Made by a program: the position numbers and the translations under genes. A stretch of DNA of 56,473 nucleotides from Rhodobacterales bacterium (GTDB taxonomy: Bacteria > Pseudomonadota > Alphaproteobacteria > Rhodobacterales > Rhodobacteraceae). Of the stretch, positions 1 through 33,033 are shown piece after piece. The stretch lies in NCBI GenBank assembly GCA_017303485.1, contig JAFLCY010000002.1:1-56473 (forward strand). Reading direction: 5' to 3'. The notes beneath the pieces were generated by a model. It was not told the origin of the DNA and searched no databases. It saw nothing but the letters and a program-made list of their open reading frames with translations. Positions within the stretch are counted from its first letter, which is position 1. Each line of letters starts with the position of its first letter.

Positions 1-1128
1 CTCGAAAATTTCTGCTAGACTGCGGGGCGCGGGCACCGTCGGCGTCACCGCCACTGCACCGTCGTCGGCGGCGCCAGAGGGGCTGGTGGGATATCCCGCG
101 TCATTGTCGTTGTCATGGTCGGTCGCCCCATGCACGGCACGGCCGCTCCAATGCCAAAGTTTCCGACGCAAATCTTGGCGCAGCTGATGTCGGATGGCAT
201 GACATTCTGATTCAATCGTGCGCAAACTTTCAAATCCGTCCGAATGTTTGCGCAATATCGCTCCAGCCGATGCGTACTGACGTGCCGCGGCTTGGTACTT
301 GCCATCGGCAATTTGTTGTCGCAACGTTTGGGGGAGTTTCAACAGTCCGTCCAATCGAGACAACAGACGTTTGACGCGAATTTTTTCGGCCACTTGATCG
401 CGGACATTCCCCAATTCGTCTTCCATGAGTCGAGCTCGTTCTTCAATGGCAGGCATATCTCGGACTAAATCGTTCAATCCGGCTTCGTGCGCTGATACAT
501 TGATCCCGACCGATCGAATGGCATCGGTCGCATCAATGAAACGTGAATAATTCTCATACACGAGCGTTTGCATCGTCGAATCGAGGGTCCGGACTTGCAA
601 GGCCAAATGTTCTTCCGTTTCCAAAAGGGATTGCATGGATGACTCATAGACGTGTTGTCGCGTGTACGAAACCGCATCGAAATTGGGGGAGTTCCAGTCC
701 AGAGAGGCCCGGCCCTTGTTGGAACGAGTCCGGGAGGAGTCACCTTTCCGTTCCTGGTCCTTGTCGTCAATGTCATCATCGTCATCGTCACTGTCTGAAT
801 CGTCCAGGTGGGAGGAGGAGGAAGGTGGGAGAGGCAATTGCTGTGATTTACGGGCGGCCGCGACGGCCGACTTGCCATAGAAATTCTCTAGTAACTTTTG
901 CCGCACCAACGCTTCCCGGTCTTGGGGACGGTGGCGTTGCGACGATGACGAAGCCTTGTTGCTTGGATCGTTACTGTTGTGATGGTGGTGCGTGAGGAAT
1001 TCTTCGTCGGAATCGTCGTCGTCGTCATCCGCCAGAAAGGAATCCGCTGACATGGAAGAGGAAGCTCCTGCCGTTGCCGTCTTGGAGATAGGAGGACCAC
1101 CAAGGGGAATGGGACGGTTGTTGCTCAT
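1..1128 (-). CDS. Eukaryotic Vps51-like vesicle tethering subunit, N-terminal 376 codons (runs off left edge)
   Basis: An uninterrupted reading frame starts at an ATG at 1128 and is still open at base 1. The first 140 residues are Ser/Asp-rich low complexity with two acidic tracts (about residues 33-41 and 105-120). Around residue 143 the hallmark Vps51 block begins: LDWNSPNFD (W145), then LLETEEHL, LDSTMQTLVYENYSRFIDATDAIR (Y191), followed by helical sequence with RLLSRLDGLLKLP and YQAAARQYASAGAILRKH. This order matches Vps51/Vps67 (Fat-free), the GARP/EARP subunit that tethers endosome-derived vesicles at the Golgi. Bacteria have no such family. Codon use and GC are unlike everything to the right. 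The C-terminal half is missing because the window ends. A diatom or similar alga is a guess at the source; eukaryotic origin is firm. Confidence 0.88.
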   Translation of the reverse strand, partial: MSNNRPIPLGGPPISKTATAGASSSMSADSFLADDDDDDSDEEFLTHHHHNSNDPSNKASSSSQRHRPQDREALVRQKLLENFYGKSAVAAARKSQQLPLPPSSSSHLDDSDSDDDDDDIDDKDQERKGDSSRTRSNKGRASLDWNSPNFDAVSYTRQHVYESSMQSLLETEEHLALQVRTLDSTMQTLVYENYSRFIDATDAIRSVGINVSAHEAGLNDLVRDMPAIEERARLMEDELGNVRDQVAEKIRVKRLLSRLDGLLKLPQTLRQQIADGKYQAAARQYASAGAILRKHSDGFESLRTIESECHAIRHQLRQDLRRKLWHWSGRAVHGATDHDNDNDAGYPTSPSGAADDGAVAVTPTVPAPRSLAEIFE

Positions 1129-1645
1129 GATCGTTGTTGTGGGGACAGGAACCCACGAGCTGCTGTGGGAACAACTCTTTGGAGGTTCAGGGCTTGTTGG
1201 AGCGAGACGGTTGACTTTGACAGGATTGTTTTGCTCTCAAAAAGCAAGCGAGTGAGAGCTTGCTGTTCAGTGGCCATCATCATGGTCGTTGTGCCTCGAG
1301 ACTCGAGAGCCACAATGAAGAAATAAGGTTGACTCTATTAGTGTTAGAGTTTTGTACAGTGATCGAGTTTGGGTTACGAAACTTGAACCGGTACTGAGAA
1401 GACAGTATCCACATGCTACTACTTATGGCCATCTTCGACGGGACTCATCTATTTTGGTCGACGTCGATGATCTGCTCCTCCTGCCCCAACACGCACGATG
1501 CCCCCAGGAGGAACGATGAACCTCATCGACCAATAGCAAGCGCGCCAACGGATCGAAAGCTTTCACCTCTCACTCCTCCCAAACAATAGGGAATTTCCAC
1601 TACTTACTAGTACATCAGCCCTACGAAACCGAGCAGCCAACAGAC
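1129..1645. other. Non-bacterial upstream DNA of the Vps51-like gene, ending at a junction with bacterial DNA
   Basis: This stretch is visibly poorer in GC than the rest and has no convincing coding frame on either strand. It lies 5' of the Vps51-like start, so it probably holds that gene's promoter and 5' UTR. The last eukaryote-like base is placed near 1640-1648, because the bacterial CoaBC reading frame follows its family up to that point and then turns into unrelated residues and a stop at 1607. Confidence 0.7.
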
Positions 1646-2395
1646 GACCGGAACCACCTCCACACCGGCGGGGGGCGGCACCGTTGCAGGGCCGGTCACG
1701 AAGGTGACCCTGGCCCCGAGATCGCGCAGCGCTGCCGCCAGTGCCGCGCCCTGCGCGCCCGAGGACCGGTTGGCGATGTAGCGCACCGGATCAATCGGTT
1801 CATGGGTCGGGCCGGAGGTCACCAGCACATGTTTCCCCGCGAGTGGCCCGCCGCCCAATGCCACCGAGATCGCCGCGACAATCTCCAGGGGCTCGGCCAT
1901 CCGCCCCTCGCCTGCCTCGCCGCTTTCGGCCATCTCGCCCCGGTTGGGCCCGATGAACAGCATTCCATCCGCCAGAAGCTGTGCCCGATTGCGCCGGGTT
2001 GCCGGGTGCCCCCACATCGCCGGGTTCATCGCGGGCGCCATCAGCACGGGCTTGTCGGTCGCCAGAAGCACGGCGCTTGCCAGATCCCCGGCCAGCCCCT
2101 GCGCCAACTTGGCCATCAGATCGGCCGTCGCAGGAGCCACCACGATCAGATCGGCCTCGCGCGACAGGCGAATATGGCCCACATCCTGTTCGTCCTGCCG
2201 GTCGAAAAGATCTGTGAACACATGATCCGCCGTCAGCGCGCCCACCGACAGGGGAGTAATGAACTGCTGCGCCGCCCCGGTCATCACCGCACGCACCGAG
2301 GCCCCGCGTTCGCGCAGTCGCCGGATCAGGTCAAGCGTCTTGTAGGCCGCGATGCCGCCACCGATGACCAGAAGAATGCGCTTTCCTGCCAGCAT
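1646..2395 (-). CDS. coaBC: CoaBC (Dfp) phosphopantothenoylcysteine decarboxylase/synthetase, 3'-truncated at a chimeric junction
   Basis: This bifunctional flavoprotein joins cysteine to 4'-phosphopantothenate and decarboxylates the product in coenzyme A synthesis. The N-terminal flavin domain has GGGIAAYK near the start and the PAMNPAMW signature of the decarboxylase half. The synthetase half begins with VTSGPTHEPIDPVRYIANRSSG. Only about 250 of the usual 400 residues are present: after VEVVPV the frame enters foreign sequence (VCWLLGF) and stops at 1607. ATG 2395 (MLAGKRILL) is preferred over the upstream in-frame ATG at 2428 because it matches the usual family start. The gene is broken by the join with eukaryotic DNA, most likely an assembly artefact rather than a real pseudogene. 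Confidence 0.85.
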
Positions 2396-2470
2396 CTGCC
2401 CAAGCCCTCTCTGTGGGACACGGGACAAGGTGTAGGGTCCATGCGCCGCGACTGCAACTCCCGGAAGGGA

Positions 2471-3169
2471 TCACAGGCTCCGGTCGATCTCCTCGGCCAC
2501 CAGCGCCTGCAGCCTCCAGAGGCCCCGGTCGCGGATGCCACGCGCTTCCAGCTGAGTGACGGTGTTCAGAAGGTACTCCGCCCCGGTTCCCCAATGACCG
2601 CAGGCGCGGGCAAGCGTGCGGGCCACCTCGTCGGGTGCCAGGCGGCCGGCATAATAGGGTGAAGCGCGGTTCATCACGAAGCCAAGGGCGCGGCAAGGCC
2701 CGGCCTCGGTTTCGACGGTCAGCCAGCGCGGCATGCTGTTGATCGGCTTCACGGTGAATTCCCGCCGGAACAGGCGGTCAAGCTGGGCTGCGGGATCGTC
2801 CGGGGGCAGTTCCAGCACGACGCCCCGGCATTGCCCGCCGCGATCCAGCGCCATCATCAGCCCGGGCTGGTCGACCGTGCCACGAAAGCGGTGCATCCGC
2901 AGGCAGAACGACCGATGCCAGCCCCGCGCGACGGCAGGACGTTCGGCGCGGTGTTCGATCTCCGGCCGCCAGATCAGCGATCCGTAGGCAAAGAGTTGCA
3001 GCGGTTGTCCCGGGGAAGGATGGGTCCGCAACATGCGGTCGACCCATTCGGCGTAGTCGGCATCGGTCTGCTGTTCGACCCCGGCGGCCGGGCCGGAATC
3101 CGGAATCTCGTGGTGGATCCGGGCGATATGCGCGGCCGTCAGCCGGGGAGTTTGCGGTTGGCGCGGCAT
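2471..3169 (-). CDS. ChaC-type gamma-glutamylcyclotransferase
   Basis: The 232-residue protein has the YGSLIW motif (about residues 63-68) that forms the substrate loop of the gamma-glutamylcyclotransferase fold, then RSFCLRMHRFRGT and PGLMMALD, as in ChaC proteins. These cytoplasmic enzymes split the gamma-glutamyl group of glutathione to give 5-oxoproline and Cys-Gly. The glutamate-containing strand seen in ChaC proteins is probably in RREFTVKPINSMPRW. The gene lies 75 bp upstream of coaBC on the same strand and downstream of rpoH, with no overlap, so it may be transcribed separately. The N-terminal 40 residues are not part of the recognisable domain. Confidence 0.82.
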   Translation of the reverse strand: MPRQPQTPRLTAAHIARIHHEIPDSGPAAGVEQQTDADYAEWVDRMLRTHPSPGQPLQLFAYGSLIWRPEIEHRAERPAVARGWHRSFCLRMHRFRGTVDQPGLMMALDRGGQCRGVVLELPPDDPAAQLDRLFRREFTVKPINSMPRWLTVETEAGPCRALGFVMNRASPYYAGRLAPDEVARTLARACGHWGTGAEYLLNTVTQLEARGIRDRGLWRLQALVAEEIDRSL

Positions 3170-3250: not shown

Positions 3251-4129
3251 TCACTTCAGGAAATGGCGCAGCTCGCCCGTCTGGCTTTCCAGTTTGCTCC
3301 GCAGCTTGGCGAAGGCCGCGGCTTCCAGTTGCCGGACGCGTTCCTTGGACAGACCCAGTTCCACGCCAAGCGATTCCAGCGTCCGGCCCTGATCCTTCAG
3401 CTTGCGTTCGGCCACGATAAAGCGTTCGCGCGCCGTCAGGCCTTGCAGCGCCCGCACCAACCAGCCCCGCAAGAGGTCCCCATCATGTGCGGCTTCCACT
3501 GCCTCGGCGGCCTGTTGGCCTTCGTCCTCCAGCGCGTCGATCCAGTCGCGACCCTCGCCGTCGCTCCCTTGCGCAACGTTCAGCGAATAGTCTGACCCCG
3601 ACAGACGACCCGCCATCATCTCGACCTCGGCCACCGACACGCCCAAGGCGGCGGCAACCCTTGTGCGCAGGGTGACCGGGTCCATCGGTTCGCCCCGGTC
3701 AGAGGCCTCGCGGTCCAGCCTCGCCTGTACCCGACGTAAGTTGAAGAACAGCGCTTTCTGGCCCGATGTCGTGCCCGTGCGGACCATCGACCAGTTGCGC
3801 ATCACATAGTCCTGCACGCCCGCCTTGATCCACCAAACCGCATAGGTCGAGAAACGCACCCCGCGGTCGGGATCGAACTTGTCGGCGGCCCGCATCAGAC
3901 CAAGGCTGGCCTCCTGGATCAGGTCGCCCATCGGGGCACCATAGCGGCGGAATCGCGCGGCCATGGAGATCGCCAGGCGCAGGTAGGCCGTGATCAGCCG
4001 ATGCAGCGCGCGTTCGTCCCGATGGTCGCGCCAGGCACGGGCCAACTGTAGCTCGGTCTCGGCATCCAGGAATTCGGCCGTCATCGCTTGGCGCGACAAG
4101 TCGGGGCCGGTATATCCGTCAAGTGCCAT
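3251..4129 (-). CDS. rpoH: RNA polymerase sigma-32 factor, RpoH2-like
   Basis: This 292-residue sigma-70 family factor directs RNA polymerase to heat-shock or oxidative-stress promoters. Region 2 runs from about residue 45 to 115 (DLIQEASLGLMRAADKFDP, STYAVWWIKAGVQDYV). The RpoH box GQKALFFNLRR at 123-133 identifies sigma-32 rather than a housekeeping sigma. Region 4 with its helix-turn-helix (LGLSKERVRQLEAAAFAKLR) closes the protein. ATG 4129 follows a good ribosome site (GGAGGAAG). Rhodobacteraceae usually carry two RpoH proteins; assignment to the RpoH2 (singlet oxygen) branch rather than RpoH1 is an impression, not proven. It diverges from cobU with a 67-bp gap. Confidence 0.88.
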   Translation of the reverse strand: MALDGYTGPDLSRQAMTAEFLDAETELQLARAWRDHRDERALHRLITAYLRLAISMAARFRRYGAPMGDLIQEASLGLMRAADKFDPDRGVRFSTYAVWWIKAGVQDYVMRNWSMVRTGTTSGQKALFFNLRRVQARLDREASDRGEPMDPVTLRTRVAAALGVSVAEVEMMAGRLSGSDYSLNVAQGSDGEGRDWIDALEDEGQQAAEAVEAAHDGDLLRGWLVRALQGLTARERFIVAERKLKDQGRTLESLGVELGLSKERVRQLEAAAFAKLRSKLESQTGELRHFLK

Positions 4130-4196
4130 GACTTCCTCCACGTCATCCAGTCGAGGTGCTGTCGTCTGTTCCTTCTTATGTCTACGGAGCCCTCGC

Positions 4197-4727
4197 GTGT
4201 CCGGATCACTTCCGTCCCTCACTCTGATCCTTGGCGGTGCCCGGTCCGGGAAATCGGCCTTCGCCGAGCGACTGATCATCGGATCGGGCCGCCCCCGGCG
4301 CTACATCGCCACGGCGGAAGCCTGGGACGACGAAATGCGCGAACGCATCGCCCAGCACCGGCGCGACCGGGCGGGCGACTGGACCACGGTCGAGGCACCA
4401 TTGGACCTTGCTGCCGCCCTGGCCGCCGCACCGGCGGAAGACGCGGTCCTGATCGACTGTGCGACCCTGTGGCTGACCAATCATCTGCTTGCCGAACATG
4501 ACCTTGCCCGTGAAACCCGCCGCCTTGTCACCGCACTGGCCGACTGCCGGGCGCCGGTCGTCATCGTCTCCAACGAAACCGGCTGGGGAATCGTTCCCGA
4601 AAATGCGCTCGCGCGCCGATTTCGCGACGAACAGGGGCGGTTGAACCAGCGCCTCGCCGCCGAGGCGGGGCTGGCCGTCGCGGTGATCGCTGGCCTGCCC
4701 ATGGTCCTGAAAGGCCAATTGCCATGA
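4197..4727 (+). CDS. cobU: CobU/CobP adenosylcobinamide kinase/guanylyltransferase
   Basis: This cytoplasmic enzyme phosphorylates adenosylcobinamide and attaches GMP in the nucleotide-loop assembly of vitamin B12. The P-loop GGARSGKS is at residues 13-20. It is followed by YIATAEAWDDEM, a region with His in RIAQHRRDR (the guanylylated-His position of the family), LIDCATLWLTN and VSNETGWGIVP, all CobU signatures. The 176-residue length is normal. The GTG at 4197 is chosen because GGAG lies 7 bp upstream and it gives the family's usual N terminus; the longer frame to 3990 overlaps rpoH. Its stop overlaps the next start (ATGA), so the two are translationally coupled. Confidence 0.87.
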   Translation: MSGSLPSLTLILGGARSGKSAFAERLIIGSGRPRRYIATAEAWDDEMRERIAQHRRDRAGDWTTVEAPLDLAAALAAAPAEDAVLIDCATLWLTNHLLAEHDLARETRRLVTALADCRAPVVIVSNETGWGIVPENALARRFRDEQGRLNQRLAAEAGLAVAVIAGLPMVLKGQLP

Positions 4728-31636: not shown

Positions 31637-33033
31637 GGCAGGCGGTTGAGGAAGGTCAGGAGGTGGCGGGTGTAGGCCTCGGGCTTTTCCACGTTGCAGA
31701 CATGGCCCGCGCCGGGGATCACCTCGAACCGCACGTCGGGGCGCGGGGCGGCGTCCCAGATGCGGCCCGCGACAGCGCGGATCTCGGCGGGCGGGGCAAG
31801 GCGGTCATGTTCGCCGGTCATCATGAGGACGGGCATGGTCAGCTTGGCGAAATCGAAGCGCTCCAAGGGGTTGGTGAAGCAGACCAGCGCGTCGCGGTAG
31901 GTGGCGGCGGGGATCGCGGCCATGCTGTCGTAGAGCTTCTTGCGGGTATCGTCGGAAGCGTCCGGCCCGGCCAGCACCTTCACCACCGCAGGCGCGAAAT
32001 CCGCCGGGACCTGGCCCGCATTCAACGGCACTTCGCGGGAGACCCGGAAGGCCTCGCGCTCGTCGGGACCGGCCTCGGACATGCCGGTGCAGCCACCAGA
32101 GAGGACCAGCCCCGCCAGCATGTCCGGGTGCCGCATGGCGAATGACGTCGCGATCCAGGAGCCGTAGGACAGGCCCACCAGCACCAGCCGCTTTGCGCCC
32201 AACTTCTCGGCCACCCGCAGGATGTCGGCGCAATAGTCGTCCACCGTGGATTGCCGGGGACCAAGCGTGCTGTCGCCATATCCCCGCAGGTCGAGCGCGG
32301 CGGCGGGCATGGAGGAACCGACGGCTTGCACTTGAGGCAACCAGTTGGTGCGGCCTCCGCCGATGCCGTGGAGGAAGAGGCAGAGCGTGTCTCCAAGCCC
32401 CCCACCCCCATCCCCTCCCCTCGAGGGGGAGGGGAGGCGCGAGGTGGATGCCGCAGAGCCAGGCCCGGAAGCCCGGGAGCCTCCCTCCCCCCTTGTTGGG
32501 GAGGGTCGGGGTGGGGGGGCTTGCGAGATGGTCAGCGCCAGGCGCGGAAGGTCGTCGAAGATCAAAGTCTCGACCGGGACCGGAGCGTACAGCGGAGTGT
32601 CATGCCGTTCGGGAACGGAAGCGGTCGCCAGCGCCGCAATTCCGGCCTCGAACACCGCCTTCGTCCCCTCGCAGATCGCCGCCAGCCGCGCCGCCGGGGC
32701 GCGGATGGTTGCTGTCCAGCTGACAATTGTTCCCCCGGCCTCGGCAGGTGTCACGGTGATCCGCGCGTCATAGGCCTCGCAGTCGCGGATGCCTTCCAGA
32801 TGGGTATAGCCCAGCACCCGGTCGCTGTCCGACAGATAGGTCTGCTGCTCACGGTAGGTGGTATCCTCGCCCGTAACGGTGAAAGCCCGGACCAACGCTC
32901 CCCGCGGACCCTGCTCCTGACGTATCGTCTCGATCCACGGATGCCAGGCCCCGCAAAAGTCGCGGACGGTCGCCCAGACCGCATCCGGTGGCGCGGGAAC
33001 ATGACCCCGGACCTGCACCACCTCGCGCCCCAT
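31633..33033 (-). CDS. SRPBCC - alpha/beta hydrolase fusion interrupted by an in-frame palindromic element
   Basis: The 466-residue protein starts with an SRPBCC ligand-binding domain (about 1-145: VRGHVPAPPDAVWATVRDFCGAWHPW). A C-terminal alpha/beta hydrolase (about 215-466) has FLHGIGGGRTNW (oxyanion region), nucleophile elbow GLSYGSW, the acid in MMTGEHDRLAP and the His in PGAGHVCN. Between LALTISQ and TLCLFLHG lie about 43 residues of Pro/Gly/Ser/Arg (PSPTRGEGG, SPSRGGDGGGG) encoded by a 128-bp inverted-repeat element. An N-formylmaleamate deformylase-like role (compare NicD) is suggested by the ring-cleaving dioxygenase upstream. Start overlaps the preceding stop by one base. Confidence 0.8.
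   Translation of the reverse strand: MGREVVQVRGHVPAPPDAVWATVRDFCGAWHPWIETIRQEQGPRGALVRAFTVTGEDTTYREQQTYLSDSDRVLGYTHLEGIRDCEAYDARITVTPAEAGGTIVSWTATIRAPAARLAAICEGTKAVFEAGIAALATASVPERHDTPLYAPVPVETLIFDDLPRLALTISQAPPPRPSPTRGEGGSRASGPGSAASTSRLPSPSRGGDGGGGLGDTLCLFLHGIGGGRTNWLPQVQAVGSSMPAAALDLRGYGDSTLGPRQSTVDDYCADILRVAEKLGAKRLVLVGLSYGSWIATSFAMRHPDMLAGLVLSGGCTGMSEAGPDEREAFRVSREVPLNAGQVPADFAPAVVKVLAGPDASDDTRKKLYDSMAAIPAATYRDALVCFTNPLERFDFAKLTMPVLMMTGEHDRLAPPAEIRAVAGRIWDAAPRPDVRFEVIPGAGHVCNVEKPEAYTRHLLTFLNRLP
32395..32522. repeat. In-frame palindromic repeat element inside the hydrolase gene
   Basis: The left end AAGCCCCCCACCCCCATC and the right end (minus strand AAGCCCCCCCACCCCGAC) are near-identical inverted copies. 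Inner arms form two more hairpins, CCCCTCCCC-TCGA-GGGGGAGGGG (32412-32434) and CCCTCCCC...GGGGAGGG (32483-32504). The element does not break the frame: it adds a low-complexity loop between two strands at the front of the hydrolase domain. This resembles mobile palindromic elements known to insert in coding genes of alphaproteobacteria such as Rickettsia. Confidence 0.7.

Follow-up and report, generated by a model that had tools for sequence, protein, structure and literature searches.

Vps51 is described as one of the subunits that make up the vesicle tethers GARP and EARP; it binds a SNARE through its N terminus, and its coiled coil helps the complex to assemble (PMC10094427). The SNARE contact, as set out in the same source, is made with the Habc domain of Tlg1 or syntaxin 6 by an aromatic pair near the N terminus, Phe27-Tyr28 in yeast and Tyr40-Tyr41 in human Vps51 (PMC10094427). 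A survey of CATCHR proteins places Vps51 in a single cluster with Cog1, Cog8, Sec5 and Exo84, and reports an overlap of CATCHR Pfam families (Sec5, Dor1 and PF08700) especially in Vps51 orthologs; in its part on prokaryotic proteomes no significant CATCHR hits are recorded, and coiled coils are named as a possible source of confounding matches (PMC8290106). The second point of reference is the chimeric contig, which the GUNC paper treats as a product of misassembly in metagenome assemblies (PMC8201837).

The window analysed here is a stretch of 56,473 nucleotides forming the first part (G000:C112:1-56473) of a 98,363-base contig, in an assembly of 4,383,943 bases and 257 contigs that is 99.84% complete and 6.22% contaminated. 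From about position 1645 on, this contig reads as bacterial DNA of the Rhodobacteraceae. The sigma factor encoded at 3251-4279 has its best relatives in Tabrizicola and other Rhodobacteraceae, among the best 80 of 546 confirmed matches, and we infer that the genus of the bacterium is Tabrizicola. The features of the contig end are collected in Table 1.

Table 1. Features at the start of contig C112 (positions are those of the window)
Feature	Position	Strand	Basis or remark
Vps51-type gene, N-terminal 376 codons, 3' part lost at contig start	1..1128	-	open frame, Pfam
VPS51_Exo84_N domain	445..693	-	PF08700 profile search of genomes, 56.6 bits; residues 146-228
Phe83-Tyr84, candidate SNARE (Tlg1/syntaxin 6 Habc) binding pair	877..882	-	translation LLENFYG; putative equivalence
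DNA upstream of the eukaryotic gene	1129..1645	.	GC 0.50 (1129-1646); no homology to the bacterium's relatives
Junction of eukaryotic and bacterial DNA	1641..1653	.	onset of blastn homology and alignment
coaBC (dfp), truncated at the junction to its N-terminal part	1646..2428	-	TIGR00521 positions 1-245 of 392

The contig opens within a 376-codon frame that had been pointed out in an earlier note, from which the strand was missing. It lies on the minus strand, where it starts with an ATG at 1128 and stays open, without a stop, as far as contig position 1. The translation is rich in Asp and Ser at its N terminus, in keeping with the acidic and Ser-rich character ascribed to it before, and contains both of the motifs quoted at the time, LDWNSPNF and LDSTMQTLVYENY, the latter of which presumably resembles human VPS51. 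In Pfam, VPS51_Exo84_N (PF08700) scores 54.1 bits on residues 146-228 (E 1.7e-14, with a cut-off of 24.2 bits), a match that is beyond chance and lies clear of the low-complexity N terminus. Overlapping it are Sec5 (PF15469, E 1.1e-12) and Dor1 (PF04124, E 1.9e-10), both above their cut-offs, while Vps54_N, Sec15 and COG2 match the same stretch below theirs; this set of families is shared with Vps51, and Phe83-Tyr84 in LLENFYG, upstream of the domain, is a candidate equivalent of its aromatic pair. Since these families overlap, a candidate pair lies upstream and not a single NCBIfam model matches at E <= 1, the frame most likely represents a eukaryotic Vps51 of which the contig start has left the N terminus. 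The attribution to Vps51 of the eukaryotic GARP/EARP tether, which the earlier note had put forward, is thus borne out, and neither a best match to a bacterial protein family, looked for among the NCBIfam models, nor a lack of similarity to Vps51 was observed. The 376 residues present here compare with 700-827 in plant, worm, fly, fish and human Vps51 and with 164 in yeast, and the pair at 83-84 with those at 27-28 in yeast and 40-41 in human (PMC10094427); with the pair so placed, the N terminus of the contig frame would be longer than that of either protein. The C-terminal helical rod of Vps51 would belong to the part lost at the contig start.

That the subunit is Vps51 rather than a paralogue is a step that we infer. 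PF08700 takes its name from Vps51, Exo84 and Cog1 alike, Sec5 and Dor1 also exceed their cut-offs, and the clustering of Vps51 with Cog1, Cog8, Sec5 and Exo84 (PMC8290106) would be compatible with another eukaryotic tether subunit of this cluster (Exo84, Cog1, Cog8 or Sec5), which would leave the contig chimeric all the same. However, a Phe-Tyr pair placed before the domain would fit the SNARE-binding site described for Vps51 (PMC10094427), and the overlap of the Pfam families is reported especially for Vps51 orthologs (PMC8290106), so that we regard a paralogue as unlikely.

Much less probable still, to the point of being barely credible, is a bacterial coiled-coil protein that merely resembles Vps51. 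Coiled coils may give rise to confounding matches (PMC8290106), and a phmmer search of the PDB with the frame returns weak, unrelated matches only (best E 0.028 and 0.082). Against this stand the 54 bits of PF08700, the two further families above their cut-offs, three more CATCHR families that match this stretch below their cut-offs, the lack of an NCBIfam match, the foreign GC and GC3 of the stretch described below, the failure of PF08700 to match any of 14 control genomes and the published survey, in which prokaryotic proteomes gave no significant CATCHR hits (PMC8290106). Other searches with the Vps51-like frame gave little. For a 30-residue piece containing Phe83-Tyr84 the PDB gave no match at E <= 10, and PHROGs gave two weak matches, with E 0.0018 for residues 21-138 and E 0.16 for residues 1-80, both of which were taken as compositional. 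Six short peptide patterns recovered relatives in 0 of 594 candidate stretches in genome contigs and 0 of 409 in viral contigs, which is weak evidence as three of the peptides are Asp-rich and of low complexity. A degenerate MQTLVYENY pattern was found in no stretch of the viral contigs; among 146 loci it gave five matches, all of them copies of the contig-start stretch itself.

The frame is embedded in DNA of deviating composition. Positions 1-1640 have a GC of 0.533, whereas 1701-50600, taken in 1.1-kb steps, averages 0.650 (sd 0.025, minimum 0.585), in agreement with the lower GC remarked on earlier; GC3 is 0.58 in the Vps51-like frame as against 0.71-0.86 in 9 of the 11 other open reading frames measured in the window. 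The remaining two, with values of 0.54 and 0.68, both lie in a low-GC island that begins at 52 kb. The changeover from eukaryotic to bacterial DNA takes place at about 1645, since blastn homology with the loci of relatives begins there: in the nine of eleven relative loci used for the comparison, it starts at 1645 (three), 1647 (five) or 1653 (one). From the junction on, it spans the rest of coaBC and reaches the neighbouring ChaC-like gene in six of the nine; none of the nine has a blastn match to 1129-1645. The foreign stretch therefore includes the frame to which the earlier note had confined it, and continues to about 1645, that is, 517 bases past the end given there. Phages and plasmids gave no blastn match to the 1646-base stretch, and no Rfam family reaches its gathering score, either in the window or at the start of seven sampled contigs, of which one start is all N. 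Apart from loci containing the same stretch, the searched sequences do not repeat any 20-base word of 1-1640, and the repeats found across the junction or within 1-3000 are short and imperfect; the comparison thus brought up no shared repeat to account for the misjoin proposed below, a point against it.

The gene into which the junction falls tells where the bacterial contig should have continued. PF04127 (length 186) has two matches in the assembly, positions 1-66 on C112 and positions 142-186 on another contig, C185, and no further match at E <= 0.001, while the same search is positive in all 14 control genomes. C185 is 32,766 bases long and its PF04127 match ends on base 32766, the last one; this end lies inside coaBC and carries no eukaryotic DNA. 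By blastn, eight of the nine relatives have the end of C185 and the bacterial start of C112 within one coaBC gene, 221-223 bases apart; for L007, the remaining one, the two alignments end short of these points. Because the pieces lie so close together in one gene of the relatives, C112 and C185 would be neighbours in the bacterium, parted by an assembly gap. A coaBC match was found in 17 of the 20 relatives searched, the three without one belonging to other families in the class. Within the genus, 11 of 12 relatives have coaBC as a single open frame of 407-460 aa, and the twelfth, G002, has it as two adjoining pieces in a frame of 377 aa. The 76 residues missing between the two parts (query from L005) found no match in the assembly, in a search run without a positive control. 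coaBC serves the biosynthesis of CoA and is generally essential. A eukaryotic piece sitting at an assembly gap in a single-copy, presumably essential gene therefore points to a chimeric contig end.

Shown are the family to which the protein belongs, a break in composition, a junction that lies in coaBC and the missing coaBC end on another contig. On this basis we hold with high confidence that the first ~1645 bases are a chimeric eukaryotic fragment on a bacterial contig, whichever subunit they encode. As a feature of the bacterial genome the stretch is almost certainly an assembly artefact and no real gene of the bacterium. It would stem from the nuclear genome of a co-sequenced eukaryote and comprise the 5' region and the first 376 codons of, most likely, Vps51; the assembly would have wrongly linked this piece to a broken end of a Tabrizicola contig within coaBC, and the fragment would have no role in the bacterium. 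The join itself would be an assembly or a library chimera. The likeness to chimeric contigs as treated by GUNC lies in the fragments of two sources within one contig, here joined at a break in a bacterial gene; those chimeras concern prokaryotic genomes, whereas here one partner is a eukaryote and the status of the assembly as a metagenome bin is putative (PMC8201837). Two marks of a chimeric contig are present, a composition that breaks at the junction (GC 0.533 to 0.650) and a bacterial gene that goes on elsewhere, the 3' part of coaBC reaching the final base of C185.

The alternative, that eukaryotic DNA truly integrated into coaBC of the bacterium, was weighed against this. The sequence is unbroken and free of N across the junction, and a true insertion in coaBC would equally put the junction there. 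Yet coaBC is present once, as two incomplete pieces, so that an insertion would destroy the only copy, the contig on the other side of the break ends in coaBC free of eukaryotic DNA, and PF08700 matches none of the 31 other genomes of the genus. Misassembly is favoured because coaBC is cut at the join and its missing end terminates another contig, and integration appears very improbable. More remote again is a version in which algal or protist nuclear DNA is truly inserted in Tabrizicola coaBC and the cell takes CoA precursors from a eukaryotic partner. The preference for contamination over integration expressed in the earlier note is accordingly shared here; it had left the direction of contamination open either way round, of which eukaryotic DNA in a prokaryotic assembly stands and the reverse does not. 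Two further points count against a chimera. A single chimeric pair of short reads would yield less than the 1.6 kb of foreign DNA seen, and the eukaryote would therefore have been covered well enough for assembly. In addition, the families and contig starts described below brought up no other DNA of clearly eukaryotic origin in the bin, from which binning may have removed the rest.

As for the remainder of the assembly, the present genome is the only one of 32 in the genus with a PF08700 match. Five families rich in eukaryotes gave no clearly eukaryotic match in it: chlorophyll-binding proteins (PF00504), RRM (PF00076) and WD40 (PF00400) are without any match, Ras has one below the cut-off, and Pkinase (PF00069) has six above it on six contigs (loci L121-L126). 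The six Pkinase matches were rejected as eukaryotic genes, as the GC of these loci (0.637-0.667) is bacterial-looking; SGGFGITYLAKDSLDRDVVIKEC is common to two of them, L123 and L124. Contig starts were sampled on 39 of the 256 other contigs, at one end each and judged mainly by GC, and the 36 that are readable have a GC of 0.583-0.696; the other three, on C150, C160 and C170 (2.4-2.7 kb), are all N. The far end of C112 has a GC of 0.616. With PF08700 matched in this genome alone among the 32, no clearly eukaryotic match in the five families and the 36 readable contig starts bacterial in GC, these results suggest an isolated chimeric end rather than a mixed bin. The chimeric end also suggests that the sample contained a eukaryote alongside the bacterium.

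The case is one of data quality: automated annotation would assign a Vps51 protein to a bacterium, and such an annotation could pass for gene transfer or for a prokaryotic origin of vesicle tethers.

Two side observations concern other DNA. The low-GC island has a GC of 0.50-0.58 over 52-59 kb of C112 (51225-56473 in the window and on to about 59000) and comes after transposase frames (PF13737, PF01609). It contains a GH3 glycosidase of 814 aa (GC3 0.54), an SBP_bac_5 protein and a short nucleoside hydrolase frame whose match is confined to positions 1-123 of 297. A second eukaryotic piece was considered here and rejected for 51.2-56.5 kb in view of the transposases, GH3, nucleoside hydrolase and SBP_bac_5; the island is probably horizontally acquired bacterial DNA. 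The other observation concerns a public record, L089 (JAFKDC010000015.1), which is titled Enemella evansiae and, among the matches listed, encodes a sigma factor that shares 70% identity with the one of this Rhodobacteraceae bacterium. Enemella is an actinobacterium, and the record looks like a mislabelled or contaminated one.
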